Assembly (NCBI GenBank): GCA_017541265.1
Contig: JAFXZK010000009.1
Span: 1-46,590 of the forward strand
Origin: Bacteroidaceae bacterium
GTDB lineage: Bacteria > Bacteroidota > Bacteroidia > Bacteroidales > Bacteroidaceae
Direction: 5' to 3'
Length of the DNA: 46,590 nucleotides
Shown here: positions 2,477-45,549 of the stretch, in pieces
How the letters are laid out: the number at the start of each line of letters is the position of its first letter
Numbering within the stretch: position 1 is the first letter of the stretch
Program-made: the position numbers and the translations under genes
Notes under the pieces: generated by a model
Told to the model about the DNA's origin: nothing
Database searches by the model: none
Seen by the model: only the letters and a program-made list of their open reading frames with translations

Positions 2477-2989
2477 ATGGATTACACAAATGTTAAGATG
2501 AGAGCAGATGGCGACACAATTCGCTTTGCCCTTTTGAAAGACGGTGAACAAATGCTATATGTATTTGGCGTAAACCCAAGTACTGCCACTGACAAAAAGC
2601 CTGACCGCACAATGCAAAAGGTTCTTGGCTTTGCAGATCGTAATGGTTTTGACGGTTTTGCTATGATGAACCTATATCCTTTGCGGAGTACAAATCCTAA
2701 TGCTTTGCCCAAAGCGATGGACGAAGAATTGCATCAAAGGAATCTTACCGAAATAAAAGAAGTGATTGGTAAAAAGAAGAATCCTGTTATACTCTTCGCT
2801 TTCGGCAACGCTATTGGTGCGGCTCCGTATTTGAAGAAATGTTTGAAAGATATTGTTTCAACACTTCAGCCATTAAACCCTCAATGGAAGCAAATAGGCA
2901 AGCCTACAAAATGGGGGAATCCTCGTCATCCTCTTTATGCCCATTATGTTCCATTTGAAAACTTTGATGTTGAAGCTTATCTAAAATAA
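2477..2989 (+). CDS. DUF1643 domain protein
   Basis: A 170-residue soluble protein with the DUF1643 signature: a hydrophobic strand leading into FGVNPSTAT (residues 30-38), a GFADRNGFDGFAMMNLYPLRSTNP block (about 51-74) and an FAFGNAIG strand further on. The length is normal for the family. No biochemical role is established; members are scattered in mobile or accessory regions. It starts 11 bp after the TonB_C lipoprotein gene and is followed by a strong terminator, so the two genes form a small unit. Confidence 0.8.
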   Translation: MDYTNVKMRADGDTIRFALLKDGEQMLYVFGVNPSTATDKKPDRTMQKVLGFADRNGFDGFAMMNLYPLRSTNPNALPKAMDEELHQRNLTEIKEVIGKKKNPVILFAFGNAIGAAPYLKKCLKDIVSTLQPLNPQWKQIGKPTKWGNPRHPLYAHYVPFENFDVEAYLK

Positions 2990-3000
2990 AAAAGAACATG

Positions 3001-3046
3001 AGCGGATAGCCCGAAACTCCGTTGGCTATCCGCTTAGCTTTTTGTC
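3001..3046 (+). terminator. Rho-independent terminator after the DUF1643 gene
   Basis: An 11-bp perfect stem, AGCGGATAGCC (3001-3011) with 3024-3034, has a 12-base loop and is followed by CTTTTTG. It lies 11 bp after the DUF1643 stop codon. Confidence 0.8.
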
Positions 3047-3166
3047 AATAAACATTTATGCTGCTTGCCCTATGTCGTGCAGGAATTCGGGGGTGAGGTC
3101 GGCACCGTTGCTCTAATCCCATCGTGTGGCATCTTCAGTACCAATTTCATCGCATGGTGGAGAGTG

Positions 3167-3442
3167 TTACTTGTCGTTGTAGTGCTCCTCGGCTTGGATT
3201 ATCAGCACGGTAACACGGTCGTCATAAATATCATAGATGATGCGGTCGTTGGCTGTGATGTGGCGCGAGTATGTCACATCGTTTCCACCAACTAATGCTT
3301 CTGGGTGACCAAGCCCTGTACGGGGATGCTCCATGATGTCGAGCAGAATTTTCGTCGCCTTCTTGAATAGTTGCGGATTGGATTTCTTCCATTTCCGCAA
3401 CGTCTTGTCCGCATCCTTGGAATATTCAATCGTGTACCTCAT
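3167..3442 (-). CDS. Txe/YoeB family toxin (predicted ribosome-dependent mRNA interferase)
   Basis: A 91-residue RelE-fold protein of the YoeB type. It shows an N-terminal strand (RYTIEYSKDADKTLRKW), two helices, then HPRTGLGHPEALVG, YSRHITANDRIIYDIYDD and a terminal ABAB-like segment ending EEHYND. In YoeB the conserved Glu/Arg/His residues and the terminal His-Tyr are catalytic; here Arg in SRHI, Arg in DRIIY and the final His-Tyr are visible. By family, it cleaves mRNA in translating ribosomes. Its start overlaps the last four bases of the antitoxin gene (ATGA), the usual coupled arrangement. Confidence 0.88.
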   Translation of the reverse strand: MRYTIEYSKDADKTLRKWKKSNPQLFKKATKILLDIMEHPRTGLGHPEALVGGNDVTYSRHITANDRIIYDIYDDRVTVLIIQAEEHYNDK

Positions 3443-8001: not shown

Positions 8002-8046
8002 TGCCAACACAACGTGGACTTGTTGGCATAAGTCCACGTTCTTATT
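8002..8046. repeat. Palindromic ACGTGGACTT element in the spacer 7820-8550
   Basis: AACGTGGACTT (8011-8021) pairs with AAGTCCACGTT (8030-8040). The intervening GTTGGCA (8022-8028) can pair with TGCCAAC (8002-8008), which would form an H-type pseudoknot or alternative hairpins. The 19 bases 8028-8046 are the exact reverse complement of 45506-45524. The rest of 7820-8550 contains AT-rich sequence, a weak TACATTTG (8191-8198) and the moxR promoter; no gene is supported. Confidence 0.6.
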
Positions 8047-8463
8047 CCCAAGACGACACTTTTTTTCGGATGAAAATCTGCGCCGAAAAGTGTGCAAAAA
8101 CGGGCGAAAACAGCCTGTTTTGCCATGTGTAGTTGGCAATTTGCCGCAAAGCATCGAAGCGCGTCGGCTGTAACCATTTGGTTTTCAGAATACATTTGAT
8201 TTAAGCGCATTTCCCCTAAAAAATGAAGAAAACCATGCTAGAGAGTGTTTCAAGCGATTCTGTGCGGTGCGCTGGAAAGTGCTGTGTTAGCAAAAGCGCT
8301 GTTTTTGCAACATTTTGTCAAGTTAGTGCTTGGCGGATGTGCCACGGCGTGCCCCTGCATCCGAAAGAGCGTTCCCTGTGCTTTCTTGCGCTGTTTTAAC
8401 AGAATTAAACACCGTTATAACTTTATTTATCATTTCTCGTTTGGCAGAACGGTAAGAAAGCAG

Positions 8464-8550: not shown

Positions 8551-9546
8551 ATGGCAGAATCGATTGACATTCGTGAACTAAACGAACGCATTGAGAGACA
8601 AAGTGGCTTCGTCACCAACCTGGTGACGGGCATGAACCAAGTGATTGTGGGGCAGAAGCATCTGGTGGAGTCCCTGCTCATCGGACTGCTCAGCGACGGG
8701 CATATCCTGCTCGAAGGTGTGCCGGGCCTGGCAAAGACAATGGCTATCAAGACGCTGGCACAGCTGGTGGACTCCAAGTTCAGCCGCATCCAGTTCACCC
8801 CAGACCTGTTGCCGGCAGACGTTATCGGCACGATGATTTACAGCCAGAAGGACGAGAAGTTCCTCGTTGAGCAGGGTCCCGTCTTCGCCAACTTCGTGCT
8901 GGCCGATGAGATAAACCGTGCTCCGGCAAAGGTGCAGAGCGCCCTCCTCGAGGCTATGCAAGAGCGTCAGGTGACGATAGGCAAGAACACATTCAAGCTG
9001 CCGAAACCGTTCCTCGTGCTTGCCACGCAGAACCCCATCGAACAGGAAGGCACCTATCCGCTGCCCGAGGCACAGGTGGACCGTTTCATGCTCAAAGTCG
9101 TCATCGACTATCCGAAGCTCGACGAGGAGAAGCTCATCATCCGTCAGCAGATAAAGGGCGAGGCTCAGGTCGTGAAGCCCGTCATGGGAACGGACGAGAT
9201 CATGAAGGCCCGCGAGATTGTGCGCGAGGTCTATCTCGACGAGAAGATTGAGCAGTACATCGCCGACATCGTGTTCTGCACGCGCTATCCCGAGAAGTAC
9301 GGCTTGAAGGAGATAAAGGACTACATCGAGTTTGGCGGTTCGCCCCGTGCCAGCATCAACCTCGCGTTGGCTGCCCGCGCGTTTGCCTTCATCAAGCGCC
9401 GCGGCTATGTCATTCCCGAGGACGTGCGCAGCGTGGCTCACGACGTGCTCCGTCACCGCATCGGCCTCACCTACGAAGCCGAAGCAAACAACGTCGTCAG
9501 CGAAGAAATCATCAGCAAAATCGTGAATAAGGTTGAAGTTCCCTAA
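8551..9546 (+). CDS. moxR: MoxR-family AAA+ ATPase
   Basis: A 331-residue MoxR ATPase. Visible parts are Walker A GVPGLAKT (residues 56-63), the FTPDLLPADVIG segment, Walker B FVLADEINRAP (about 114-124), sensor 1 in LVLATQNPIEQEGTYPLPEAQ, the arginine-containing QVDRF, and a C-terminal lid with GGSPRASINLALAARA. MoxR proteins act as chaperone-like ATPases for neighbouring VWA-domain proteins, here the DUF58, BatA and BatB products. It is first in the operon, 70 bp from a promoter. In related Bacteroidales moxR is followed directly by the DUF58 gene; here a DUF559 cassette separates them. Confidence 0.93.
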   Translation: MAESIDIRELNERIERQSGFVTNLVTGMNQVIVGQKHLVESLLIGLLSDGHILLEGVPGLAKTMAIKTLAQLVDSKFSRIQFTPDLLPADVIGTMIYSQKDEKFLVEQGPVFANFVLADEINRAPAKVQSALLEAMQERQVTIGKNTFKLPKPFLVLATQNPIEQEGTYPLPEAQVDRFMLKVVIDYPKLDEEKLIIRQQIKGEAQVVKPVMGTDEIMKAREIVREVYLDEKIEQYIADIVFCTRYPEKYGLKEIKDYIEFGGSPRASINLALAARAFAFIKRRGYVIPEDVRSVAHDVLRHRIGLTYEAEANNVVSEEIISKIVNKVEVP

Positions 9547-9548
9547 AA

Positions 9549-9580
9549 GACCCACCCCGGCCCTCCCTTAAAGGGAGGGA
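9549..9580 (+). repeat. Left 32-bp inverted repeat of the DUF559 cassette
   Basis: It begins with GACCCACCCCGG, followed by the internal palindrome CCCTCCCTTAAAGGGAGGG. Its reverse complement is found without mismatch at 9987-10018. It starts inside the 5 bp after the moxR stop codon. Confidence 0.9.
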
Positions 9581-9598
9581 GAAAAGTCGCTGACAGAG

Positions 9599-9970
9599 AT
9601 GAGATATGAAACTGCATCACCAGACATTTATCCTTTACTCAGGGCTTTTGCCCGAGAGAACAGAAAGAATGCAACGGTGGCAGAACAGGTGTTGTGGGAG
9701 CACATACGGCACGATGCACTGGGGGTGAAGATTCAGCGACAACACATTATCGGTGATTTCATTGTTGATTTCCTTGCACCAAACGAAAGGCTGATTATTG
9801 AGGTTGATGGCGCATACCATGCAGAAGAACGGCAAAAGGAAGACGACAAAATGCGTGCGGAAATACTTGAGAGGAAGGGTTATAAGGTGATTCGCTTTTC
9901 AAATGAAGAAGTATTATACGATACAGATATGACTATAAAGAAGATTAAGGAGGCGTTGAAACATGAATGA
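9599..9970 (+). CDS. DUF559 (Vsr/PD-(D/E)XK-like) endonuclease-domain protein
   Basis: A 123-residue protein of the DUF559 family, related in fold to very-short-patch-repair nucleases. The N-terminal helix region (NRKNATVAEQVLWEHIR) leads to QRQHIIGDFIVDFLAPNERLIIEVDGAYH (residues 46-74). Asp57 with the Glu68-Val-Asp70 segment and His74 would form the PD-(D/E)XK-like metal site, and GYKVIRF follows as the usual strand. The length is full for the stand-alone family. It sits between moxR and the DUF58 gene, bracketed by perfect 32-bp inverted repeats, in a place where related operons have no gene. The DNA target and biological role are unknown. See the first finding for a possible role in repeat spread. 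Confidence 0.88.
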   Translation: MRYETASPDIYPLLRAFARENRKNATVAEQVLWEHIRHDALGVKIQRQHIIGDFIVDFLAPNERLIIEVDGAYHAEERQKEDDKMRAEILERKGYKVIRFSNEEVLYDTDMTIKKIKEALKHE

Positions 9971-9986
9971 TGCTCAGCGTGATAGC

Positions 9987-10018
9987 TCCCTCCCTTTAAG
10001 GGAGGGCCGGGGTGGGTC
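9987..10018 (-). repeat. Right 32-bp inverted repeat of the DUF559 cassette
   Basis: Exact reverse complement of 9549-9580. It ends one base before the ATG (10020) of the DUF58 gene, so a longer in-frame start at 9963 would translate the repeat and is unlikely to be the natural start. Confidence 0.9.
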
Positions 10019-10019
10019 T

Positions 10020-10880
10020 ATGGATATCCTAAAGCGTGTCCGTCAGATAGAGATCAAGACGCGTGGCCTGAGCAGCAATATCTTTGCGGGCGAGTACCAT
10101 TCTGCCTTCAAGGGGCGCGGTATGACGTTCTCCGAGGTACGCGAGTACCAGTACGGCGACGACATCCGAGACATCGAGTGGAACGTGACGGCCCGCTTCG
10201 GAAAGCCCTACGTCAAAGTCTTTGAGGAGGAACGAGAGCTGACGGTGATGCTCCTTGTTGACGTCAGCGGCAGCCTCGACTTTGGTTCCGTGAAGCAGTT
10301 CAAGCGCGACATGGTGACCGAGATTGCTGCCACGCTTGCCTTCTCTGCCATTCAGAACAACGACAAGATTGGCGTCATCTTCTTCTCGGACAAGATTGAG
10401 AAGTTCATCCCGCCCAAGAAAGGCCGCAAGCACATCCTGTATATCATCCGCGAACTCCTCGACTACCAGCCCGAGAGCCGCAAGACAAACATTGCCTATG
10501 CGCTGGAATACATGACACAGGCCATCAAGAGAAGGTGCATCGCCTTTGTGCTGAGTGACTTCCTCGACCAGCATGGGTTCCTCCAGCCGCTCTCCATTGC
10601 TGCCCACAAGCACGATGTCGTGGCCATTCAGGTTTACGATAAGCGCGTGGCAGAGTTGCCCAACATCGGCCTCCTGAAAGTGCATGATGCCGAGACAGGC
10701 GAGGAGCAGGTCATCGACACCAGCAGTAGTGCCGTCCGCGAGGCACAGGCAAGATGGTGGAAGCAGCAGACGATGCGACTCAAGGACACCTTCAGCCGCA
10801 GCCAAGTGGATGCCGTCAGCGTGCGGACAGACCAGGATTATGTGAGTGTGTTAAGAGGGTTGTTTGCAAACCGTAAATAA
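10020..10880 (+). CDS. DUF58 domain protein of the Bat operon
   Basis: A 286-residue protein with the DUF58 arrangement: an N-terminal segment with SNIFAGEYHSAFKGRGMTFSEVREYQYGDDIRDIEWN, the diagnostic Y-x-x-GDD-x-R-x-I-x-W motif (about residues 40-54), followed by a VWA-like domain beginning VMLLVDVSGSLDFG (MIDAS DxSxS). By family it partners with the MoxR ATPase. No membrane segments are visible, so it is probably cytoplasmic. The start at 10020 (MDILKRVRQ) is preferred over 9963 because the extra 19 residues would be encoded largely by the cassette's right repeat. Confidence 0.9.
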   Translation: MDILKRVRQIEIKTRGLSSNIFAGEYHSAFKGRGMTFSEVREYQYGDDIRDIEWNVTARFGKPYVKVFEEERELTVMLLVDVSGSLDFGSVKQFKRDMVTEIAATLAFSAIQNNDKIGVIFFSDKIEKFIPPKKGRKHILYIIRELLDYQPESRKTNIAYALEYMTQAIKRRCIAFVLSDFLDQHGFLQPLSIAAHKHDVVAIQVYDKRVAELPNIGLLKVHDAETGEEQVIDTSSSAVREAQARWWKQQTMRLKDTFSRSQVDAVSVRTDQDYVSVLRGLFANRK

Positions 10881-10881
10881 A

Positions 10882-10913
10882 GATCCCCTCTAACTCCCCC
10901 GTGAAGGGGGAGA
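10882..10913. repeat. GC-rich palindromic repeat copy
   Basis: TCCCCTCTAACTCCCCCGTG followed by AAGGGGGAGA forms a tail plus hairpin of the GC-rich family in the 50-bp gap between the DUF58 gene and the next gene. Confidence 0.7.
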
Positions 10914-10930
10914 ACAAAAAGAACAGATAA

Positions 10931-12106: not shown

Positions 12107-13105
12107 ATGACCTTTGAAAACCCGCTATATCTGCTTTTGTTGCTGCTGGCGATACCTTATGTAATATGGTATTGGTTTAGGCAGAAGGCTTCGACACCTG
12201 CTATCCGTGTCAGCTCGACAACAGCTATGTTCCAGGCTCCGAAGAGCCTGCGCCAGCGTTTGCTGCACCTGCCGCTCCTGTTGAGGCTGGCCTGTTACGC
12301 CTTTGCCGTCATTGCTTTGGCTCGACCTCAAACGTCTAACAGCTGGAGCAGCAAGCATACCGAGGGCATTGACATTATGCTTTGTATGGACGTCAGCACC
12401 AGTATGCTGGCGGAAGACCTGAAGCCCAACCGCATCGAGGCAGCCAAGAATGTGGCTCTAGAGTTCATCAGCGGTCGCCCCGACGACAATATCGGCCTCA
12501 CGCTCTTTGCCGGAGAAGCCTATACACAATGCCCCATGACCGTTGACCACGCGGTTCTCTTGAACTTGCTGAACGGTATGAAGGTCGATATGGCACAGCG
12601 CGGCCTCATCGACGACGGCACAGCAATCGGTATGGGCATTGCCAACGCCCTGCTCCGCCTCAAGGACAGCAAGGCGAAGAGCAAAGTCATCATCCTGCTC
12701 ACCGACGGCACCAACAACTGCGGACAGATAAGTCCCAACACGGCAGCCGATATGGCGAAGAGCTTCGGCGTGCGTATCTACACCATTGGCGTCGGCACGA
12801 ACGGCACGGCACGCTATCCCTATCCCGTCGGCGGACGCATCGAATATGTCAACATCCCCGTGGAGATTGACACCAAGACACTCGCCACCATTGCCCGCAA
12901 GACGAACGGCGAGTTCTATCGCGCCACGAACAACCAGAAGTTGCACGAAGTCTATCAGGAAATCGACAAGCTGGAAAAGACCAAGATGAACGTGCGGCAG
13001 TACTCCAAGCGCTACGAAGCGTACGGAATGTTCCTGCTCATCAGCGTCCTCTGCCTCATGGTTGAAATCCTATTAAAGAACACGATATTGAAGCCTCTCC
13101 CCTAA
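12107..13105 (+). CDS. batA: BatA, VWA-domain membrane protein
   Basis: A 332-residue BatA-type protein: TM helix near residues 7-24, LALARP-type junction after a second TM (about 58-72), then a VWA domain with MIDAS DVSTSM (95-100), the conserved AEDLKPNRIEAAK, the TAIGMGIANAL threonine loop and LLTDGTNN. A C-terminal TM helix follows (YGMFLLISVLCLMVEILL). Bat proteins were linked to aerotolerance in Bacteroides. The last four residues (KPLP) and the TAA stop lie inside a GC-rich palindromic repeat shared with pyrE, so the native C-terminus may have been replaced. Confidence 0.93.
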   Translation: MTFENPLYLLLLLLAIPYVIWYWFRQKASTPAIRVSSTTAMFQAPKSLRQRLLHLPLLLRLACYAFAVIALARPQTSNSWSSKHTEGIDIMLCMDVSTSMLAEDLKPNRIEAAKNVALEFISGRPDDNIGLTLFAGEAYTQCPMTVDHAVLLNLLNGMKVDMAQRGLIDDGTAIGMGIANALLRLKDSKAKSKVIILLTDGTNNCGQISPNTAADMAKSFGVRIYTIGVGTNGTARYPYPVGGRIEYVNIPVEIDTKTLATIARKTNGEFYRATNNQKLHEVYQEIDKLEKTKMNVRQYSKRYEAYGMFLLISVLCLMVEILLKNTILKPLP

Positions 13106-13128
13106 CCCCTCCCCTAAAGGGAAGGGGG
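13093..13128. repeat. GC-rich palindromic repeat overlapping the batA stop codon
   Basis: It begins GCCTCTCCCCTAACCCCTCC and continues into CCCCTAAAGGGAAGGGGG. It is almost identical to 38009-38043 at the end of pyrE, and in both genes it supplies the TAA stop. Confidence 0.85.
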
Positions 13129-13180
13129 AAAACGGGAGACAAATAGTAAATTGTAAATCGTCAAATTGTAAATAATCTCG

Positions 13181-14884: not shown

Positions 14885-14924
14885 AACGTGACAAGTTCAA
14901 ACGCTCCCAGGTTAGTTGCAAAAC

Positions 14925-15052
14925 GAGGCACGCCTAGTTTGCCAATTAGACACGCCTAGTTTGCCAATTAGACACGCCTAGTTTGCCAATTAGGCACGCC
15001 TAGTTTGCCAATTAGGCACGCCTAGTTTGCCAACTAACCACGCTTAGTTGAA
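14925..15052. repeat. Tandem array of 22-bp units between batC and batD
   Basis: Four clean 22-bp units run from 14946 to 15033 (unit core TTAGGCACGCCTAGTTTGCC plus AA, with G/A variation at position 5). A partial copy precedes them and a degenerate copy follows at 15034-15052. Each unit contains the dyad TAGGCAC-GCCTA or its variant. The array fills most of the 182-bp gap inside the operon. There are no spacers, so it is not a CRISPR array. Other 22-bp-period arrays lie at 25848 and 45462. Confidence 0.88.
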
Positions 15053-15066
15053 AGAGATATTACAAG

Positions 15067-23355: not shown

Positions 23356-25770
23356 ATGGTTAACCTCGAAGAATTAAACGAACGTCAGCTTGAAGCGGTG
23401 CTTTGCATCGATGCTCCTTCGCTTGTCATAGCAGGCGCGGGCAGCGGCAAGACGCGCGTCCTCACCTATAAGATAGCCTATCTGCTGGAGCAGGGTATGC
23501 AGCCCTGGAACATCCTTGCGCTGACCTTTACCAACAAGGCAGCCCGCGAGATGCGCGAGCGCATTGCCACCCTTGTCTCGCCCGAGAAGGCCGGGAAGCT
23601 CTGGATGGGAACCTTCCACAGCATCTTTGCTCGCATCCTTCGTCTGGAAGGACATCGCCTGGGCTATGACACCAACTACACCATCTACGACACCAACGAC
23701 AGCCTGAGCCTCCTCAAGCTCATCATCCGCGAGATGAACCTCGACGAGAAGGTCTATAAGCCGAGTGCCGTGCAGAACCGCATCTCCAATGCCAAGAACC
23801 GCCTCGTGCTGCCCTCCGCCTATACATCCGTGAGGGAGTTCCGCGAGAGCGATGCCTTCTATAACCGCACCCTCATCCCCGAAATATACAACCATTATCA
23901 GGAGCGCCTGAAGCAGGCCAACGCGATGGACTTCGACGACCTCCTGCTCAACACATGGCTCATCCTCAAGCACAATCCCGAGGTGGCGGCCGCTTGGCAG
24001 GAACGCTTCCACTTTGTCCTCGTCGATGAGTATCAGGACACAAACTTCGCCCAGCATCAGATTGTCTGGCTCCTCACCAACCAGCGGCAGCGCGTCTGTG
24101 TTGTGGGCGACGACGCACAGAGCATCTACAGCTTCCGGGGAGCCGACATCGACAACATTCTGCACTTTCAGGAAGCATATACCGGCGCGCGCCTCTTCAA
24201 GCTCGAGCGCAACTACCGCTCCACGCAGACCATTGTTGGTGCCGCAGGCAGCCTCATCCGCAACAACCGAGAGCAAATCTCGAAGAATGTCTTCAGCGAG
24301 AAAGAGGTGGGCAACCCCATTGCTCTTCTGCAGGCCTACAGCGACACCGACGAGGCGAACATCATCACGCGCGAGGTGCAGCGTGCCCATCGTGCAGGTA
24401 TCCCGTACAAGGGCATCGCCGTGCTCTACCGCACCAACGCGCAGAGCCGCAAGATAGAAGACAGTTTCCTCTACGCGCGTGTACCTTATCATATCTACGC
24501 AGGCATGTCGTTCTACCAGCGCGAGGAAATCAAGGATATGCTCTGCTACCTCCGCCTCGCAGTCAATCCCTACGACGAGGAGTCCCTGCGTCGCGTCATC
24601 AACAAGCCCGCCCGAGGCATAGGCGACACCACCGTCCGCAAACTCTCATCGGCAGCTGCAGAGGCAGGGACAACGATTTGGGAAGTACTGGAAGACCTAC
24701 CCCAACCCTCCCTTAAAGGGAGGGAGTCCTCAAATGGTGAGGCCCTCCCTTTAAGGGTGGATTTGAGTAAATCAACATTGTCCCGCCTGAAGGACTTCCA
24801 CGATATGATATCCTCCTTCCACGAAGCCGCCGCTACCGACGATGCCTATACGCTTTCCCTGCGTATCGCGAAGGAGAGCGGTCTGCAGCAGATGATATTC
24901 AGCGGGCACGACCCCGATGATGTCTCACGGCAGGAGAACCTGCAGGAGATGCTCGACGGCATTGCCGCTTTCGTGCAGGACAACCAGGAGCAAGGGCTTG
25001 GCATATTTCTTGGCGACTACCTGCAGGTGGCAAGCCTTGCCACAGACCTTGACCGGGACAAGACGGAGGGGGATGCCGACTGCATCAACATGATGACCAT
25101 CCACACCGCCAAGGGCTTGGAGTTCCCCGTCGTCTTCATCGCAGGCCTGGAGGAAGGGCTTTTCCCCAGTGAGATGTCGCAGGACTCGCCCCGCGCCCTC
25201 GAGGAGGAGCGCCGCCTCTTCTATGTCGCTCTGACCCGAGCAGAGCGGCAAGTCGTCATTACCTACGCCAAGTCGCGCTTCCGCTTCGGTCAGATGGAGT
25301 ACATGCGCCCCAGCCGCTTCATCAGGGAGATACCGGCGGAGTATTATAAGGGGCAAGGAGCAAAGGGCATAGGGCAAGAGAATAGTTTCAGGTCTCCTGT
25401 TCTGCCGGATTTGCAATCCGGCAGAAGCGGGTATAGGGATTTGCAATCCCGCAAGAACGAATATAAGGATTTTCAATCCCGGCAGCCATTAAATCGCATT
25501 TCAAATGCTTATATTCAGAGCGGTCGGATTGCAAATCCGACCGGACAGGCAAATCCGACCGGACAGGGGAAACTATCAGTTCCCCTCCCTACAAGGGAGG
25601 GGCTGGGGAAGGGCCTGGAGTTAGGCTCTGTCGTCCTTCACGATCGCTTTGGCCGAGGCGTCGTCCAGGCTTTAGAAGGCTCCGGCATCGATGCCAAAGC
25701 CACCGTCCGCTTCGACAACGCCGGCACCAAGGTCCTCTTGCTCCGCTTCGCCAAGCTCTCCGTACAGTAG
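23356..25770 (+). CDS. UvrD/PcrA-type DNA helicase with repeat-derived insertions
   Basis: An 804-residue superfamily 1A helicase acting in DNA repair or replication. Motifs in order: Walker A AGAGSGKT (26-33), TFTNKAAREM, VDEYQDTN (motif II), VVGDDAQSIYSFRGADI (III), LERNYRSTQTI (IV), MTIHTAKGLEFPVVF (V) and EERRLFYVALTRAE (VI). A C-terminal Tudor-like domain ends the protein (VVLHDRFGRGVVQAL). Two stretches are not typical of the family and coincide with dispersed repeats. One is LPQPSLKGRE to EALPLRVD (about 447-472), in a 2B-domain loop. The other is about residues 683-755, a long linker rich in DLQSR and NPTGQ words plus VPLPTREGLGKG. All motifs remain intact, so it is probably functional. 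UvrD and PcrA cannot be told apart by sequence alone. Confidence 0.9.
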   Translation: MVNLEELNERQLEAVLCIDAPSLVIAGAGSGKTRVLTYKIAYLLEQGMQPWNILALTFTNKAAREMRERIATLVSPEKAGKLWMGTFHSIFARILRLEGHRLGYDTNYTIYDTNDSLSLLKLIIREMNLDEKVYKPSAVQNRISNAKNRLVLPSAYTSVREFRESDAFYNRTLIPEIYNHYQERLKQANAMDFDDLLLNTWLILKHNPEVAAAWQERFHFVLVDEYQDTNFAQHQIVWLLTNQRQRVCVVGDDAQSIYSFRGADIDNILHFQEAYTGARLFKLERNYRSTQTIVGAAGSLIRNNREQISKNVFSEKEVGNPIALLQAYSDTDEANIITREVQRAHRAGIPYKGIAVLYRTNAQSRKIEDSFLYARVPYHIYAGMSFYQREEIKDMLCYLRLAVNPYDEESLRRVINKPARGIGDTTVRKLSSAAAEAGTTIWEVLEDLPQPSLKGRESSNGEALPLRVDLSKSTLSRLKDFHDMISSFHEAAATDDAYTLSLRIAKESGLQQMIFSGHDPDDVSRQENLQEMLDGIAAFVQDNQEQGLGIFLGDYLQVASLATDLDRDKTEGDADCINMMTIHTAKGLEFPVVFIAGLEEGLFPSEMSQDSPRALEEERRLFYVALTRAERQVVITYAKSRFRFGQMEYMRPSRFIREIPAEYYKGQGAKGIGQENSFRSPVLPDLQSGRSGYRDLQSRKNEYKDFQSRQPLNRISNAYIQSGRIANPTGQANPTGQGKLSVPLPTREGLGKGLELGSVVLHDRFGRGVVQALEGSGIDAKATVRFDNAGTKVLLLRFAKLSVQ
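24694..24760. repeat. GC-rich palindromic repeats in frame inside uvrD
   Basis: A copy in the same orientation as 9549-9580 (ACCTACCCCAACCCTCCC then TTAAAGGGAGGGA) is followed at 24741-24760 by an inverted partial copy (GGCCCTCCCTTTAAGGGTGG). Together they encode about 20 extra residues without breaking the frame. Confidence 0.88.
25402..25565. repeat. Composite GGATTTGCAATCC element in frame inside uvrD
   Basis: A series of short hairpins: CTGCCGGATTTGCAATCCGG (from 25403), GGGATTTGCAATCCC (25437-25451), a GGATTTTCAATCC variant, GCATTTCAAATGC (25496-25508) and CGGTCGGATTGCAAATCCGA (from 25521). A non-coding copy with the units in the same order lies at 43862-43985. Confidence 0.88.
25578..25614. 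repeat. GC-rich palindromic repeat in frame near the uvrD 3' end
   Basis: TTCCCCTCCCTACAAGGGAG continues into GGGCTGGGGAAGGGCC. This is the GC-rich family in the orientation opposite to 9549, encoding VPLPTREGLGKGL just before the C-terminal domain. Confidence 0.8.
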
Positions 25771-25847
25771 GGCTTTTTGTCGAAAATCTTTACATCGAAA
25801 TAGGAGGAAAAACGGCTTTTCGTTGGGTGCAACAGGCTGTCCGCTTT

Positions 25848-25913
25848 ATAAGAGCACGTTCTTATCGTCATAAGAGCACGTTCTTATGACCAACACTCCC
25901 TGTACTTATAGCT
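25848..25913. repeat. 22-bp-period array after uvrD
   Basis: Two 22-bp units (25848-25869 and 25870-25891) share ATAAGAGCACGTTCTTAT, and a degenerate third runs to 25913 (ending GTACTTATAGCT). Each unit has a 6-bp dyad ATAAGA/TCTTAT. It shares CACGTTCTTAT with the element at 8035-8045. Confidence 0.8.
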
Positions 25914-26172: not shown

Positions 26173-26468
26173 CATTGGTGTCCGTTAAAAACGGCCTGAA
26201 AGGCCAACTAGTTCTTAGCCCAGGGCATCGCCCTGGGTTGGCAGATGTATCATAAATCTCGCCCTGAAAGGGCAAAAGAATTGAATGTCAGCTCTTTTGC
26301 CCCTTCAGGGCGAACATAACGGCCTCACAACACCCAGGGCGATGCCCTAGGCTAAGAACTAGTTGGCCTTTCAGGCCGTAATTAAGCCTTCTATCACAGA
26401 TAAATCTCCAAACATTGATTAATAAAGGCTTTTCATGTCGGCTGCGAAAAGTTTAGCGGACACCAATG
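26173..26468. mobile_element. MITE-like palindromic element with 17-bp terminal inverted repeats
   Basis: The termini CATTGGTGTCCGTTAAA (26173-26189) and 26452-26468 are inverted repeats with one mismatch. Inside, 47-bp arms 26191-26237 and 26333-26379 match with one mismatch, each containing GGCCTGAAAGGCC and CCCAGGGCATCGCCCTGGG. A further inner pair is 26260-26278 with 26294-26312. No coding frame is present. The terminal 12-mer GTGTCCGTTAAA also occurs at 667-678. No clear target-site duplication was identified. Confidence 0.7.
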
Positions 26469-26660: not shown

Positions 26661-28886
26661 ATGATTGACCTCAAGACGCTTCGCCTCATTCGACAGGACG
26701 GTTTGCAGAACTTCGCCGCCGGCCGTGTCCTCAACGGCATCGCAGCACTGCGGACGCTTCTGCCCTATTGTGCTGCCGAAACGCTTCTCCAAGCCGAAGC
26801 GGAGAGCTTGGAGGAGAACTACCACCGTATGCTCTCGTTCCTTCGCAGGGGAGGCAACGACAAGAAGCGCGGCGAGGTGCAGGCCAAGATACAAAGGCAG
26901 GGTGTCGCCCTCGTGGAACAGGTAAGCCGTGCCATACGAATTACACTGGACAAGGACCTTTATGCAAAGTCGGTTAAGAATGAAGAGTTAACTCCCATTC
27001 TTCATTCTTCATTTTCCTTTGACGAAGACCAGGACGACATCTTCGATGCGCTGTGGACGTCGCCGCTTTGGTCCGCACAAGACACAGCCTTCTGGTACGA
27101 CTTCATCCTGCGGCAGCGCGACATCGTGCAGCAGCACCTCATCGGAGCATTGTTCCTTTCCCTTTGGGAACACTACGATGCGGAGAAGATGCAGCTGCTC
27201 GGCCTCCTTGCCGACAGCGAGTGCCACCGCACGCGCATCACTGCCGTCACCTATCTGCTGTTGCTCCGACTCCGCCACAAAGAACTTGTTTCGCTCCTGC
27301 CGCCCCTGCCCGACAGCCTTCGCACGAAGAAAGGGAGGAAGCTCGTCGCACAGGTGCAGTACGAGATGCTGCTTATGCTCGTGTCCGAGAAGGACATGGA
27401 GAAAGAGCTAAAGGAAGCCGAGGGCCTCACAAAAAAGGTGCTTACGACTATCACCCCGATGCTCACAAAAAAAGCGGAGGACAAGCCGGAACCATTCACC
27501 CCTCCTTTGGAGGGGAAGGGGGAGGCTATTGTAGATTCCCTCAAAGGCATCATCTCCCTGAGAGGACGCTACTTGCGAAACCGCCTGCAGCGCGGCCTCG
27601 ACATCAACCTTTCCAAGATTCCCCTGCTGCACAACTGCGAGTACATGCGCCGCGTCTCGCACTGGTTCCTGCCTTTCGATAAGACGCACCCGCTCTTCCA
27701 GTCCGTGATGATTGACGAAAAGGGCAACGAGAAGCAGAACCTCTCCACGCTGGTTGACCTCATCATGGACTGCGACGTCGACAAGCTGGCGATGCTTTAT
27801 CTCGTCGCCAACGACAAGGATTTCTCGAAGGCCGTGCAGCAGCTGGACGAGCAGGAACTTCCCGGCCTCGAAGACGCCGTCATCCCGGAATACACCATCC
27901 GCTTCATCATGCAGGACCTTTACCGCTTCTTCTGCCACTCGCCCCTGCACACACAGCTCACCAACCCTTTCCGCGAGAAGCTGACGCTGCTCGACTTCCC
28001 TGAAATAGCCGCTTTGTTCTCTGCCGACGACTGCGTCAGCTGTTGCGGCCTGCTCTTGGAGCTGGGACGCGACAAACAGGTTATTGCCACGCTGGACGAC
28101 CTCATCAGCCGCGAAGGAGCCTCTGCTCCGGCATTGATACTCAAGGCAAGAGCCTTGAAGACACTCTCTGACTCTCCCTTGAGGGGAGAGGACTCCTCCC
28201 TTTTAAGGGGAAGTTGGGTAGGGTCCGCTATCAGCTGTGCCCGGAGCGCGGAAATGCTTGAGCCGGACAACACCGACATCCTGCAGTTCCTTGTCGAGTG
28301 CTATGCCTGGCAAGGTTGCTTTGAGGAAGAACTCGAATACTTGCAAAAGCTTGCCGAGCTGCAACCCGACAACAAGGCACTTCCGCGTCTCATAGCAAGT
28401 GCGACAGACAGGGCAGGCAGGAAAGAGGAAGCCCTGCAACTCTTCTTCAAGCTGGATTACGAGCTGGAGGAAAGTGGCGAGGAGCACGCCGACATTTTCT
28501 CCTCCATTGCCGACATCGCGCTTCGCCTCGGCAAGCTCGACATAGCAGAGCGATACACGGAGAAGGAAATTGAAATTCTCTCCAACTCCACCTCAAGGAG
28601 CGCAAACTCCCTCCTTTTAAGGGAGGGCTGGGGTGGGTCCTTGCGCTTGGGGCACATCCGACTGCTTCAAGACAACTGGAAGGACGCTTTGAATTACTAC
28701 GAGCAGTTTATCAATCTATACTGCAAAGAGACAGGGAAAGACATAACAGCCGCCCTTGCCGTGCTCGACAAACAGTGGCAAGAACTCGATGCCCAATGCC
28801 CAATGGTCAATGACTTATTGCTCATCCACGACATCCTGCAAGCCAGAGCAGACAGTGCCCAAAGCACCATGATAAATCGTAAATAA
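26661..28886 (+). CDS. Large helical TPR-like protein of unknown function
   Basis: A 741-residue soluble protein with no signal peptide or TM helix. It is almost entirely helical; the C-terminal third has recognisable TPR-like pairs (SCARSAEMLEPDNTDILQFLVECYAWQGCFEEELEYLQKLAELQPDN, and KLDYELEESGEEHADIFSSIADIALRLGKLDIAERYTEKEIEIL). The N-terminal 330 residues carry LLRLRHKELVSLLPPLPDSLRTKKGRKL and KGIISLRGRYLRNRLQRGLDINLSKIPLL; no enzyme motif was recognised. At least four short stretches correspond to dispersed repeats: near residue 106-118, 279-288 (TPPLEGKGEA), 503-523 (DSPLRGEDSSLLRGSWVGS) and 643-660 (NSLLLREGWGGS). The frame survives all of them. It has its own promoter and stands alone between uvrD and the efflux operon. 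Confidence 0.75.
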   Translation: MIDLKTLRLIRQDGLQNFAAGRVLNGIAALRTLLPYCAAETLLQAEAESLEENYHRMLSFLRRGGNDKKRGEVQAKIQRQGVALVEQVSRAIRITLDKDLYAKSVKNEELTPILHSSFSFDEDQDDIFDALWTSPLWSAQDTAFWYDFILRQRDIVQQHLIGALFLSLWEHYDAEKMQLLGLLADSECHRTRITAVTYLLLLRLRHKELVSLLPPLPDSLRTKKGRKLVAQVQYEMLLMLVSEKDMEKELKEAEGLTKKVLTTITPMLTKKAEDKPEPFTPPLEGKGEAIVDSLKGIISLRGRYLRNRLQRGLDINLSKIPLLHNCEYMRRVSHWFLPFDKTHPLFQSVMIDEKGNEKQNLSTLVDLIMDCDVDKLAMLYLVANDKDFSKAVQQLDEQELPGLEDAVIPEYTIRFIMQDLYRFFCHSPLHTQLTNPFREKLTLLDFPEIAALFSADDCVSCCGLLLELGRDKQVIATLDDLISREGASAPALILKARALKTLSDSPLRGEDSSLLRGSWVGSAISCARSAEMLEPDNTDILQFLVECYAWQGCFEEELEYLQKLAELQPDNKALPRLIASATDRAGRKEEALQLFFKLDYELEESGEEHADIFSSIADIALRLGKLDIAERYTEKEIEILSNSTSRSANSLLLREGWGGSLRLGHIRLLQDNWKDALNYYEQFINLYCKETGKDITAALAVLDKQWQELDAQCPMVNDLLLIHDILQARADSAQSTMINRK
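26978..27019. repeat. AATGAAGAGTTAA/ATTCTTCATTCTTCATT repeat in frame
   Basis: AATGAAGAGTTAACTCCCATTC and CATTCTTCATTTTCC words form an imperfect palindrome inside the helical-repeat gene, encoding NEELTPILHSSFSF. The design resembles the A/T-rich intergenic word repeats. Confidence 0.55.
27497..27522. repeat. GC-rich palindromic repeat in frame
   Basis: CACCCCTCCTTTGGAGGGGA followed by AGGGGG encodes TPPLEGKG inside the helical-repeat gene. Confidence 0.8.
28170..28227. repeat. Two adjacent GC-rich palindromic repeats in frame
   Basis: GACTCTCCCTTGAGGGGAGA (28170-28189) is followed by CTCCTCCCTTTTAAGGGGAA and GTTGGGTAGGGTCC (28193-28226). The second is in the orientation of 9987-10018. They encode DSPLRGEDSSLLRGSWVGS. 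Confidence 0.85.
28605..28640. repeat. GC-rich palindromic repeat in frame, close to the cassette consensus
   Basis: AACTCCCTCCTTTTAAGGGA followed by GGGCTGGGGTGGGTCC. It matches the right DUF559-cassette repeat (9987-10018) except for a few bases, and encodes NSLLLREGWGGS inside the helical-repeat gene. Confidence 0.88.
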
Positions 28887-29034: not shown

Positions 29035-30156
29035 ATGAGAATCAAAACAACATTTATTGTGACTTTGTCGCTGGCAGCACTTGTTTTGTTGAGTTCCTGC
29101 GACGGCAAACAGCAGCGCAAAGCGTCCACGCCAGCCTTCAAGACAGGCAAGGTAGAGAAAAAGAACATTACCCTCTCCCGTAAATACTCGGCCACCATAC
29201 GCGGACGGCAGGACATCGACGTCTATCCGCAAGTAGGCGGCACGCTGCAGAAGCTCTGCGTCACCGAGGGACAGAAGGTGACGAAGGGGCAGACGCTCTT
29301 CATCATCGACCAAGTGCCCTTCCAGGCTGCCCTGAACACAGCAGAGGCAGCACAGAAGGCTGCCAATGCCGGCCTTGCCACTGCACAGCTTACCTACGAC
29401 AGCAAAAAGAAGCTCTTCGACCAGCAGGTCATCAGCGACGTTGAACTACAGACGGCTCACAACACCTTGCTCAATGCCAAGGCACAGGTAGCACAGGCCG
29501 ACGCGCAGGTGCTCAATGCCCGCAATAACCTCAGCTACACCGTCGTGAAGAGTCCCGCCAATGGTGTCGTCGGCACACTGCCTTACCGTCAGGGTGCTCT
29601 GGTGGGTTCAAGTATGCCCCAGCCCCTGACCACCGTCAGCGACAACAACGAGATGTACGTCTATTTCTCCATCACCGAGGCGCAGTTCCTCCAGATGGTG
29701 CGCAGTGGCGAGAGCGTGGAACAGGCCATCGCCGCCATGCCTGAGCTGACGCTCCAGCTGGTCGACGGCAGCGAATACGAAGTGAAGGGCAAGGTGGAAA
29801 CGGCAAGCGGCGTGGTTGACAGGAACACCGGTTCCGTCCAGCTTCGCGCAGTCTTCGCCAATCCCAGACACATCCTGCACTCCGGTTCCACAGGCAATAT
29901 CATCATGCCAGTCGAGTTTAAGGACGTGCTTGTCATCCCCACCGCCGCCACCGTGCAGCTGCAGGACAAGTACAGAGTCTATCTTGTTGACAAGGATGGC
30001 ATTGCCCACGGTCAGATTATAAGCGTCCTGCCCCAGACGAACGGCAAGGAGTACATCGTGACAGACGGCCTCAACGGCTCCGAGGAGATTGTGTGGGAAG
30101 GCGCCGGAATGGTGAAGGACGGACAAAAAGTGAAAGGTGAAAAGGTGAAAGAGTAA
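29035..30156 (+). CDS. RND efflux periplasmic adaptor (membrane fusion protein)
   Basis: A 373-residue AcrA/MexA-type lipoprotein: signal with lipobox LLSSC (Cys22), the lipoyl half-motif VYPQVGGTLQKLCVTEGQKVTKGQTLFIID, an alpha-hairpin (AALNTAEAAQKAANAGLATAQLTYDSKKKLFDQQVISDVELQTAHNTL), the second lipoyl half (SPANGVVGTLPYRQGALV) and beta-barrel/membrane-proximal domains. It bridges the inner-membrane pump and outer-membrane channel encoded next. The C-terminal QKVKGEKVKE and the stop are encoded by the AAAGGTGAAAAGG word repeat that fills the following spacer, so the tail is probably repeat-derived. Confidence 0.93.
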   Translation: MRIKTTFIVTLSLAALVLLSSCDGKQQRKASTPAFKTGKVEKKNITLSRKYSATIRGRQDIDVYPQVGGTLQKLCVTEGQKVTKGQTLFIIDQVPFQAALNTAEAAQKAANAGLATAQLTYDSKKKLFDQQVISDVELQTAHNTLLNAKAQVAQADAQVLNARNNLSYTVVKSPANGVVGTLPYRQGALVGSSMPQPLTTVSDNNEMYVYFSITEAQFLQMVRSGESVEQAIAAMPELTLQLVDGSEYEVKGKVETASGVVDRNTGSVQLRAVFANPRHILHSGSTGNIIMPVEFKDVLVIPTAATVQLQDKYRVYLVDKDGIAHGQIISVLPQTNGKEYIVTDGLNGSEEIVWEGAGMVKDGQKVKGEKVKE

Positions 30157-30239
30157 AAAGGTGAAAACACGCACACCAACTCTTTAACTGACTAATTCCC
30201 TCTTTCAATTTTTCAACTTTTCAATTTTTCAACTTTTAT
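30130..30239. repeat. AAAGGTGAAAAGG and TTTTTCAACTTTTCAA word repeats
   Basis: The 3' end of the adaptor gene and the spacer before the pump gene hold AAAGTGAAAGGTGAAAAGG words followed by CAATTTTTCAACTTTT words, an imperfect inverted arrangement like that at 38557-38664. Confidence 0.7.
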
Positions 30240-37379: not shown

Positions 37380-38021
37380 ATGATGAACAACGTTGGATCA
37401 ATCTTTGCAGCTAAGCTGCTGGGCGTGAAAGCCATCAAGTTGCAGCCGACTAATCCCTTCACATGGGCAAGCGGCTGGAAGAGTCCTTTCTATTGCGACA
37501 ATCGCAAGACACTCTCCTTCCCCAACCTTCGCTCCTTCGTCAAGGTGGAGCTGACGCGACTCGTCATGGAGCAGTTCCCCGAGGCAGAAGGCGTGGCCGG
37601 CGTTGCCACAGGAGCCATCGCTCAAGGTGCTTTGGTGGCCGACGCATTGAACTTGCCCTTTGCTTACGTCCGCAGCAAGCCTAAAGACCACGGAATGGCG
37701 AACCTCATCGAAGGTGAACTTAGGGCTGGCATGAAGGTTGTGGTTGTTGAAGACCTCATCAGCACAGGCGGCAGCAGCCTCAAAGCTGTCGAGGCACTGC
37801 GTGCGGCAGGCTGCGAAGTAGTCGGCATGGTGGCATCCTACACTTACGGCTTCCCCGTTGCGGAAGAGGCATTCAAGGCAGCAGGCGTGAAGCTCGTCAC
37901 CCTGACCAACTACGAGGCTGTCGTCAGCGAAGCCCTCAAGACGGGCTACATCAAAGAGACAGACATTGAAACCCTTAACGAGTGGCGCAAAGACCCGGCA
38001 AACTGGAAGCCTCTCCCCTAA
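37380..38021 (+). CDS. pyrE: Orotate phosphoribosyltransferase
   Basis: A protein of about 213 residues that converts orotate and PRPP to orotidine 5'-phosphate in pyrimidine synthesis. Key features are IKLQPTNPFTWASGWKSPFYCDNRK near the N-terminus, ATGAIAQGALVADALNLPFAYVRSKPKDHG in the middle, and the PRPP-binding loop VVVVEDLISTGGSS. Starts at 37368, 37380 or 37383 are possible; the first lies inside an AAATGGTAAAT word repeat, so the later pair is preferred. The last residues (KPLP) and TAA stop lie inside a GC-rich palindromic repeat nearly identical to the one ending batA. Confidence 0.93.
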   Translation: MMNNVGSIFAAKLLGVKAIKLQPTNPFTWASGWKSPFYCDNRKTLSFPNLRSFVKVELTRLVMEQFPEAEGVAGVATGAIAQGALVADALNLPFAYVRSKPKDHGMANLIEGELRAGMKVVVVEDLISTGGSSLKAVEALRAAGCEVVGMVASYTYGFPVAEEAFKAAGVKLVTLTNYEAVVSEALKTGYIKETDIETLNEWRKDPANWKPLP

Positions 38022-38043
38022 CCCCTCCCCTAAAGGGAAGGGG
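38009..38043. repeat. GC-rich palindromic repeat overlapping the pyrE stop codon
   Basis: It begins GCCTCTCCCCTAACCCCTCC and continues CCTAAAGGGAAGGGG, essentially the same as 13093-13128. It supplies the KPLP codons and TAA stop of pyrE. Confidence 0.88.
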
Positions 38044-38076
38044 AATAAATTGTAAATCGTCAAATCGTAAATTGAA

Positions 38077-42930: not shown

Positions 42931-43932
42931 TCAACGAACAGACTTTCTTCTGGTCAGCCACTTCTCTGCTTCTTCTGTGTCTGCAGGGCGGATGTCTATG
43001 GGGGTGCTTGGAGGTTGCAGTGTGAAGGTATCGACCATGGCTGGCGGCAACTGGTAATCTTGTTTGAGAATGTCGCGGACAGTGCCGGCTTGGCTATCGT
43101 CACTCATGCGTTTGACGGCCTCGCGCAAAAGGTTAAGAAAGGCTTCTTGCTGTGCCTTTGTTGCTGACTTGCAAGCGGTCCACGCATAGAGGCGCGGCTG
43201 TTTGCCCTTCGATAGGAAGAGGCGTTTGTGTCCCAGCATTGTCATCCATGTGGCGTAAGGCTCACCCATCATGGCGGCATCGATGAGACCCTGACGAATC
43301 ATCTCTGCACGTAGCCGCACGTCGTTGATTTGTGGGCGGTAGATGTCATCGTGGCTGGTGCGGGTGCTGTCGAGCACGCGGTCGCACCAATAGTCCGTTG
43401 CGGACAGCCGGCTCACGGCAATCATCTGTTCCTTCATCTGGTTCACTTGCTTCACGCGCTTTGTTTTGAGCGAGATAAGCGAGAGTGTTTCGTCGCAACT
43501 TGCAATGGGAGTCAAGTCGGTTTGCTTTAACAAGCGGGCACAGCGGATGAGGTCGGTGAAGGCAACATCTACATGCCCATTCACGATAGCCGTGTCAATG
43601 TCCATCTGTGCCTGATAGCGCAGCAACTCCATCTCCACGCCTAAGCTGTCGGCAAGTCCGCTGCGCTCTGCATAATAAACAGGCAGACAACTCATTGTCG
43701 GCATGACGGCAACACGGAGAACGGTTGTGTCGATGCCAGTGCTGTCCGCCTCAAACTGCATCGCCTCCTGCCGATGGGAGCAAGAGGCAAGCATTAAAAA
43801 TAAAAAGGTGAAAAGATAAAAAAGTGAAAAGGTGAAAAGCGAAAAATAAGAGTTACCATGTTCGGTCGGATTTGCAATCCGACCGTTATGGGTATAGGGA
43901 TTTGTAATCCCGCAATCAGTGTTTTGTCGCAT
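42931..43932 (-). CDS. Periplasmic-binding-like lipoprotein (ABC transporter substrate-binding fold)
   Basis: A 333-residue protein. After the lipobox MLASC (Cys about 51) come the hallmarks of an NMT1/SsuA-like binding protein: VLRVAVMPTMSCLPVYYAERSGLADSLGVEMELLRY, then VNGHVDVAFTDLIRCARLL, and a C-terminal lobe with MIRQGLIDAAMMGEPYATWM. No permease or ATPase gene is adjacent. The N-terminus is odd: the only ATG (43932) lies inside a dispersed GGATTTGCAATCC element, and the hydrophobic signal core (SLFTFSLFYLFTFLFL) is encoded by the AAAAGGTGAAAAG word repeat. It lies downstream of pgk on the same strand and may be read from the pgk promoter. Confidence 0.75.
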   Translation of the reverse strand: MRQNTDCGITNPYTHNGRIANPTEHGNSYFSLFTFSLFYLFTFLFLMLASCSHRQEAMQFEADSTGIDTTVLRVAVMPTMSCLPVYYAERSGLADSLGVEMELLRYQAQMDIDTAIVNGHVDVAFTDLIRCARLLKQTDLTPIASCDETLSLISLKTKRVKQVNQMKEQMIAVSRLSATDYWCDRVLDSTRTSHDDIYRPQINDVRLRAEMIRQGLIDAAMMGEPYATWMTMLGHKRLFLSKGKQPRLYAWTACKSATKAQQEAFLNLLREAVKRMSDDSQAGTVRDILKQDYQLPPAMVDTFTLQPPSTPIDIRPADTEEAEKWLTRRKSVR

Positions 43933-44056
43933 TGCAAATGCTTATATTCCAAGCTGTCGGATAGCAAATCCGACAGAACGATTGCAGTTCCGACCGAACA
44001 TGGAAGATTTAGAGGGGTCTTCCTTTTTCACCTTTTCACCTTTTCAATTTTTCACC
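43800..44056. repeat. Composite repeat region between the binding protein and pgk genes
   Basis: AAAAGGTGAAAAG words (43804-43846), a GGATTTGCAATCC composite element (43862-43985) with units in the same order as 25402-25543, and TTTTTCACCTTTTCACC words (44028-44056) fill this stretch. Units of the composite are GTCGGATTTGCAATCCGAC (43866-43884), GGGATTTGTAATCCC, GCATTGCAAATGC and GTCGGATAGCAAATCCGAC. Confidence 0.85.
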
Positions 44057-45461: not shown

Positions 45462-45549
45462 AAAAAGTCCCCGTACTTATGGCAATAAGAGCGTGGACTT
45501 ATGACAATAAGAACGTGGACTTATAGCAATAAGTACAGGGACTTATGAC
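45462..45549. repeat. 22-bp-period array between pgk and tRNA-Gln
   Basis: Four 22-bp units start at 45462, 45484, 45506 and 45528. The two central ones share AATAAGRACGTGGACTTAT-type sequence (R is G or A by copy, AGCGTGG or AACGTGG). Each unit has the dyad ATAAG/CTTAT. The 19 bases 45506-45524 recur as exact reverse complement at 8028-8046. Confidence 0.85.

Follow-up and report, generated by a model that had tools for sequence, protein, structure and literature searches.

Why should a nuclease gene lie between two inverted copies of a hairpin-forming repeat in the middle of an operon? The question is raised by a 46,590-nucleotide stretch of a Bacteroidaceae genome (GenBank assembly GCA_017541265.1, contig JAFXZK010000009.1; the whole stretch is called the window here), in which a gene of the DUF559 family (PF04480) separates moxR from a DUF58 gene. 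The reading we favour, at a probability of roughly 0.7, is that the 472-bp block at 9548–10019 is a mobile element made up of a repeat unit, the DUF559 gene and an inverted unit, and that it represents the gene-bearing member of a family resembling repetitive extragenic palindromes (REPs). The gene-less members of this family would be single units and pairs of units with their tails facing outwards (tail-out pairs). The parts of the element are as follows.

9548–10019, + strand: whole inserted element, 472 bp, seen from presence and absence at readable moxR–DUF58 junctions
9548–9581, + strand: left unit, outer tail AGACCCACCCC plus hairpin CCCTCCCTTAAAGGGAGGG; a DNA hairpin and a perfect inverted copy of 9986–10019
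9599–9970, + strand: gene for a DUF559 nuclease of 123 residues (PF04480, E = 2.2e-33), Vsr-like by its predicted fold
9986–10019, − strand: right unit, inverted match to the left unit, tail outward with GGGTGGGTCT at its outer edge

A sequence-only reading of the window had described perfect 32-bp inverted repeats around the DUF559 gene. These repeats are real and two bases longer, with 34 bp of perfect reverse complementarity that continues to 46 nt at 89% (9548–9593 and 9974–10019). The match between the arms scores 67.9 bits, while the best of five shuffles of the same flanks reached 20.3 bits. The hairpin of the left unit has an 8-bp stem with a minimum free energy, as DNA, of −8.5 kcal/mol (z = −2.7, matched by 4 of 200 shuffles), and that of the right unit folds with a z-score of −2.1. 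The unit carries neither a GTAG nor a CGTC tag.

Presence and absence at junctions, copies at other sites that end at unit edges, and exchange between species together support, on comparative grounds, a mobile block bounded by the units. Among the 30 best-matching loci of the genus, 29 were readable at the moxR–DUF58 junction (L058, which has no moxR, was left out): 6 were filled, the window included, 2 held another insert and 21 were empty, with 8–57 bp separating the genes. At a second site of the same genome, between iorA and iorB, 5 of the 30 best-matching genus loci were filled (own genome included), 24 were empty, and one (L182) held a short element with both units and a leader reading frame, without DUF559. 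Loci are best-match samples, 30 per search from 124, 72 and 121 genomes with a match. Occupancy is mosaic: genome G032 has the element at DUF58 but not at iorB, and G136 at iorB but not at DUF58. Where homologous elements at different sites are aligned, the match covers the element and stops no more than a few bp from the outer edges of its units (L066/L072, 79% identity, aligned over 2940–3430 with unit bounds at 2942–3430; L002/L074, 69%, aligned over 1391–1892 with bounds at 1392–1892). L066 and L071, also at different sites, share 68% identity across the element; L106/L109 and L066/L070 match piecewise, and L066/L077 only partially.

At the iorB site, the element is identical over 501 bp in G000 and G136, which are two species, while the adjoining 500-bp flanks differ at 42 and 23 positions. 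The identity overruns the element by 28 bp at the left and 11 bp at the right. From loci L159 and L160, we infer exchange between species, with transfer of the block into a homologous empty site. L008 and L009 likewise share a nearly identical block, again running from unit to unit and including ~45 codons of the host gene; an indel of 36 bp and a divergent patch around the stop codon of DUF559 interrupt the similarity. The insertion sites are diverse, with 54 downstream-gene singletons among the 121 loci described below.

The arrangement extends well beyond this operon. In the window's genome, which is 87% complete, four DUF559 genes were detected. Inverted units frame every one of them; each pair is a distinct variant, the weakest being that of L004. 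Within the genus, 100 of 139 genomes carry 1–8 DUF559 copies (range 0–8). Flanking inverted repeats scoring at least 23.9 bits were present at 31 of 34 genus loci, comprising the genome's own four and the best-scoring matches. When these were pooled with 80 loci of a named set and 14 plasmid loci (128 in total), and six duplicates and one cut locus (L119) were removed, 90 of the 121 testable loci passed this score. In control windows, 0 of 160 reached the score in a first set (maximum 23.8 bits) and 2 of 120 in a second (27.6 and 29.5 bits). The expectation, implicit in the sequence-only reading, that DUF559 genes would mostly be flanked by such repeats and that relatives would have empty moxR–DUF58 junctions is thus borne out. 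As scored by script, the tails point outward at 78 of the 90 passing loci and inward at 6, with 6 undecided. At 21 of the 90 loci one unit or both contain GTAG or have it just to their inner side, at 5 both do, and CGTC is found at 14, so neither is a constant tag of DUF559 units.

Across the phylum, DUF559 was found in 109 of 198 genomes. Of 60 loci chosen among the matches listed (20 in long open reading frames (ORFs), 40 others), 31 passed the inverted-repeat score, at least two of them (L218 and L223) via repeats that are not C-rich units. C-rich hairpins flanked 39 of the 60 loci on both sides, 10 on one side and 11 on neither, whereas among 240 control windows the corresponding numbers were 0, 9 and 231. 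Chance pairing of GC-rich repeats is ruled out by the shuffles and by these controls. For plasmids outside the phylum, of which 14 of 33 records were fetched, 8 of 14 loci passed with a 300-bp window and 7 of 14 with 260 bp. Units of the same kind were seen at plasmid loci of Deinococcus, Sphingomonas, Sphingobium and cyanobacteria, while no matched unit pair was found among these 14 at the loci of Sinorhizobium, Shinella, Azospirillum and Photobacterium. Phages were considered as main carriers and rejected, as only 3 of 50,697 phage records match DUF559 at 1e-8. Among 54 adjacent tail-out pairs less than 1.5 kb apart in the named loci, which had been selected for DUF559, 39 enclose DUF559 (interior 373–572 bp), 14 hold 8–238 bp and one holds 979 bp. 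Given these contents, the idea that any gene may lie near such repeats is unsupported.

Unit and protein also appear to travel together. In a DUF559 tree of 122 proteins (54 of its 119 inner branches open), the 62 labelled rows require 12 changes of left-unit tail class, as compared with a minimum of 26 and a mean of 32 in 300 shuffles; 26 unlabelled rows and 2 GATC rows of the 90 were left out. With one row per site, there are 12 changes in 39 rows (shuffles: minimum 16, mean 21). By these counts, the unit type follows the DUF559 tree. Hairpins of the CCCTCCC..GGGAGGG pattern number 0–281 per genus genome, with a median of 30.5 in the 100 DUF559-positive genomes and 2 in the 39 negative ones (Spearman 0.66, ancestry uncontrolled), so that the repeats are not equally abundant without DUF559; within 30 genomes the correlation was 0.62, again with ancestry uncontrolled.

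The element leaves its neighbours legible. The relevant features at the window's junction are:

8551–9546, + strand: MoxR ATPase, upstream host gene, whose stop codon abuts the left unit
9963–10019, + strand: element-encoded leader, its ATG overlapping the DUF559 stop (ATGAATGA), from frame analysis of ORF 9963–10880
10020–10880, + strand: DUF58, downstream host gene, without the first codons seen at empty sites (part of ORF 9963–10880)

The leader frame stays open across the right unit into DUF58 (MNDAQRDSSLPLREGRGGS-), and its ATG at 9963 would serve as the DUF58 start codon. In 31 of the 34 genus loci at least one frame runs without a stop across the right unit and past it for over 150 nt (none in 3); an ATG lies ahead of the unit in 20 of these, DUF559's own frame continues as a fusion in 6, and an ATG occurs only past the unit in 5. 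By eye, the upstream gene often ends in a stop codon that directly adjoins the left unit or is formed by it, and filled iorA–iorB sites lack both the iorA stop and the iorB start. Other elements lie entirely in frame within genes for UDP-glucuronate epimerase, LeuRS, MetH, HsdR and an AddA/RecB-like helicase. The DUF559-bearing leuS is the only leuS found at 1e-80 in six near-complete genomes (G199 gave two matches to one gene), which suggests that the LeuRS–DUF559 fusion works. Gene-less units behave similarly: one loop of a UvrD-type helicase holds 63–153 bp of unit sequence in 10 of 30 genus loci, the window included and all multiples of 3, a bare 33 bp in 18 and another 66-bp insert in 2. 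No intein or splicing model was among the listed profile matches for 13 ORFs (cut-offs 1e-3, 1e-20 and 1e-8, two of them strict). As judged from the reading frames, host genes stay readable, because the element either provides a start codon or is itself read through in frame.

Gene-less units are spread over the window. The sequence-only reading counted about a dozen solitary copies, a number that is reached when five or six degenerate copies from looser repeat families are added to the 8 hairpins of a strict scan (two flanks included); two of the sites are pairs and not solitary. Five unit sites lie in frame within two coding ORFs, and two of the five are tail-out pairs.

24692–24773, + strand: gene-less tail-out unit pair, in frame within a UvrD-type helicase (ORF 23356–25770)
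25581–25613, − strand: solitary unit, in frame within the same helicase ORF
27499–27530, − strand: solitary unit, in frame within ORF 26661–28886
28158–28225, + strand: abutting tail-out unit pair, in frame within ORF 26661–28886
28607–28639, − strand: solitary unit, in frame within ORF 26661–28886
10878–10920, + strand: related unit between DUF58 and the next gene (repeat families, hairpin scan)
13090–13132, + strand: related unit at the end of a BatA-type gene (repeat families)
38006–38048, + strand: related unit, 95% like 13090–13132 (repeat families)

The window also holds repeats of other kinds. These are a 54-nt inverted repeat with 94% complementarity and a 93-nt spacer, resembling a miniature inverted-repeat transposable element (MITE; 26185–26385), a 22-bp tandem repeat of TAGTTTGCCAATTAGGCACGCC type (14891–15066), two related clusters of GGATTTGCAATCC-type palindromes (25376–25546 and 43837–43979), and 22-bp palindromic repeats of CATAAGAGCACGTTCTTATGAC type (25847–25912, 45462–45549 and near 8019–8050). 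Separately, the other insert at the moxR–DUF58 junction was seen in two relatives, L044 (1109–1468) and L051, and in L044 it encodes PF05635 (23S_rRNA_IVP) amid A/T-rich repeats. Of 18 uncut PF05635 loci, whose flanking inverted repeats score between 14 and 53 bits, 13 reach at least 23.9 bits; by eye, all 18 show A/T-rich repeats and not the DUF559-type unit, and their flanks consist of arrays of short A/T-rich units like those of the window at 30125–30167, 30191–30236 and 13147–13173. PF05635 and these repeats are possibly a second gene-plus-repeat family.

The DUF559 protein is under purifying selection, as measured by the ratio of nonsynonymous to synonymous substitution rates (dN/dS; L038, with a frameshifted DUF559, was left out, and two of five DUF58-site sequences are partial). 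The predicted fold of the window's protein (mean predicted local distance difference test score 87.2) matches 3hrl, I-Bth0305I and Vsr, and residues E29, D57, E68, D70, H74 and D83 are invariant in 42 DUF559 sequences. DUF559 is, by sequence and modelled fold, a relative of the EDxHD/Vsr-like homing endonuclease I-Bth0305I.

We propose that the DUF559 nuclease recognises the unit that belongs to it, perhaps in the form of a hairpin in single-stranded DNA, because unit and protein share descent. On the strength of the predicted fold and the same-site exchange, the nuclease would then cut the recipient site, and repair would copy the unit-bounded block into the cut; it may also act in trans on gene-less pairs. 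Insertions would survive where genes remain readable, either at operon stop/start junctions, with the element supplying stop and start codons, or in in-frame loops. Cutting and copying are the least certain steps. The sequence-only reading had suggested an undescribed REP-like system with DUF559 as its mobilising or maintaining nuclease: the system is supported, whereas mobilisation by DUF559 itself is something we infer. Readable host genes, same-site interspecies exchange, a unit type that follows the protein and the spread to other phyla go beyond that suggestion. For the broader proposal, the odds appear evenly balanced: that DUF559 marks a widespread, undescribed class of mobile element in several phyla, with a Vsr-like nuclease and cognate hairpin ends, which inserts itself by site-directed copying into conserved and even essential genes, either in frame or at the start codon, and gives rise to the dispersed C-rich palindromes of the genomes carrying it.

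A number of observations weigh against the mobile-element reading. The window's own element (L001) has no blastn match to that of L002, the right unit of L008–L010 lies ~45 codons inside the host gene, and no target-site duplication was seen by eye at iorA–iorB. As to the conserved catalytic E, D, H and D of EDxHD/Vsr-like homing endonucleases, the alignment to I-Bth0305I (3r3p) places A, N and W opposite D57, D70 and H74. DUF559 synonymous divergence (dS) at the DUF58 site resembles that of the host genes, and this copy therefore looks long resident; long residence with low dN/dS resembles the REP-associated tyrosine transposases (RAYTs). The inverted-repeat score was too low at 31 of the 121 loci, and eight of these (L089, L092, L114, L118, L121, L122, L123 and L132; seven from named flavobacteria and one from a Bacteroidia metagenome-assembled genome) share one common site, where the DUF559 copies are possibly domesticated. 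At least 10 hairpins occur in 9 of the 39 DUF559-negative genomes (61–91% complete), one of which has 123, and fewer than 5 in 14 of the 100 positive genomes; an ancestry-controlled comparison of 30 genomes yielded only 3–8 independent pairs and had no power.

Some of these points fit other explanations. DUF559 could be a free-standing homing endonuclease spreading by intronless homing between a pair of conserved genes, with the units as passive protective ends or independent hitch-hikers. Kinship to I-Bth0305I in sequence and predicted fold agrees with this, as do same-site exchange between diverged flanks, the placing of a DUF559 gene in the EDxHD homing family in a section on inteins (PMC9403480) and the position of free-standing homing genes between conserved genes (PMC6083498). 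We nevertheless consider it unlikely, as the unit type tracks the DUF559 tree across sites, different-site homology stops at unit edges, and gene-less unit elements occur at similar junctions and loops. A host nuclease for repair or palindrome control, kept by selection beside palindromes that serve regulation and not mobility, would explain purifying selection, the host-like dS, the Vsr-like predicted fold and the eight flavobacterial loci, and one paper proposes the Caulobacter DUF559 protein VsrA as a mismatch-repair endonuclease (PMC12907096). Copy numbers of 0–8 within one genus, many unrelated insertion sites, empty moxR–DUF58 and iorA–iorB junctions and the interspecies exchange of the block make this improbable. 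It is more improbable still that DUF559 is chance cargo and the units are nothing but ordinary terminators or hot spots for insertion: the hairpins have a high GC content and some are intergenic, but units also stand in frame inside genes, both-sided hairpins are confined to the DUF559 loci (39 of 60 versus 0 of 240 controls), and tail-out pairs, in loci selected for DUF559, mostly enclose that gene, the rest holding the short interiors given above and one of 979 bp.

If the mobile-element reading is true, a large group of dispersed bacterial palindromes gains a partner enzyme, and a Vsr-like nuclease, instead of an HUH transposase, is a second, unrelated solution to the REP/RAYT problem. DUF559 domains in LeuRS, MetH, HsdR and UDP-glucuronate epimerase would be element insertions and not evolved fusions; were insertion both site-directed and tolerated in frame, it would offer a natural model of how essential genes can take up an insertion with no obvious loss of function. 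A direct bench question follows, namely whether the 123-residue nuclease cuts its own hairpin or the empty target.

No description of a DUF559 element with flanking repeats was found in the literature searched, outside which lie preprints and most subscription journals; among the papers found there that mention DUF559, none has repeats as its subject by title or start of abstract. Several known systems nevertheless share parts of the arrangement. Unlike DDE insertion sequences and MITEs, the element shows by eye no target-site duplication at iorA–iorB, where the host genes instead lack a stop and a start codon. Inteins likewise place a homing-type nuclease domain in frame in conserved genes such as that for LeuRS, but no intein model appeared among the matches listed above, and the nucleotide ends here are inverted hairpins. 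Rickettsia palindromic elements (RPEs) are palindromic repeats in frame in protein genes (PMC3733652). DUF559 units share this habit, but their family includes a member that carries a nuclease gene, and they are found in more than one phylum. RPEs are not known to have such a member. Free-standing EDxHD/Vsr-like homing genes such as I-Bth0305I have in common the nuclease family and fold, an optional gene between or inside conserved genes, and same-site spread; they differ from the DUF559 element in its hairpin ends that follow the protein, its gene-less derivatives, which can number in the hundreds, and its many unrelated sites. REPs and REP doublets forming hairpins (REPINs) with their RAYTs, together called REPtrons, likewise have a gene between inverted palindromic units, and dispersed gene-less units and tail-out pairs. 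By the definition in PMC3733652, a REP bears GTAG or CGTC as a tag at the palindrome's foot; the repeats with CGTC seem, according to the same paper, to have no transposase dedicated to them. The DUF559 system differs from REPtrons in having no consistent tag of either kind and in its protein, PF04480 with a predicted Vsr-like fold where the RAYT is a Y1 HUH transposase, and its units often lie in frame inside genes and undergo same-site exchange between species.
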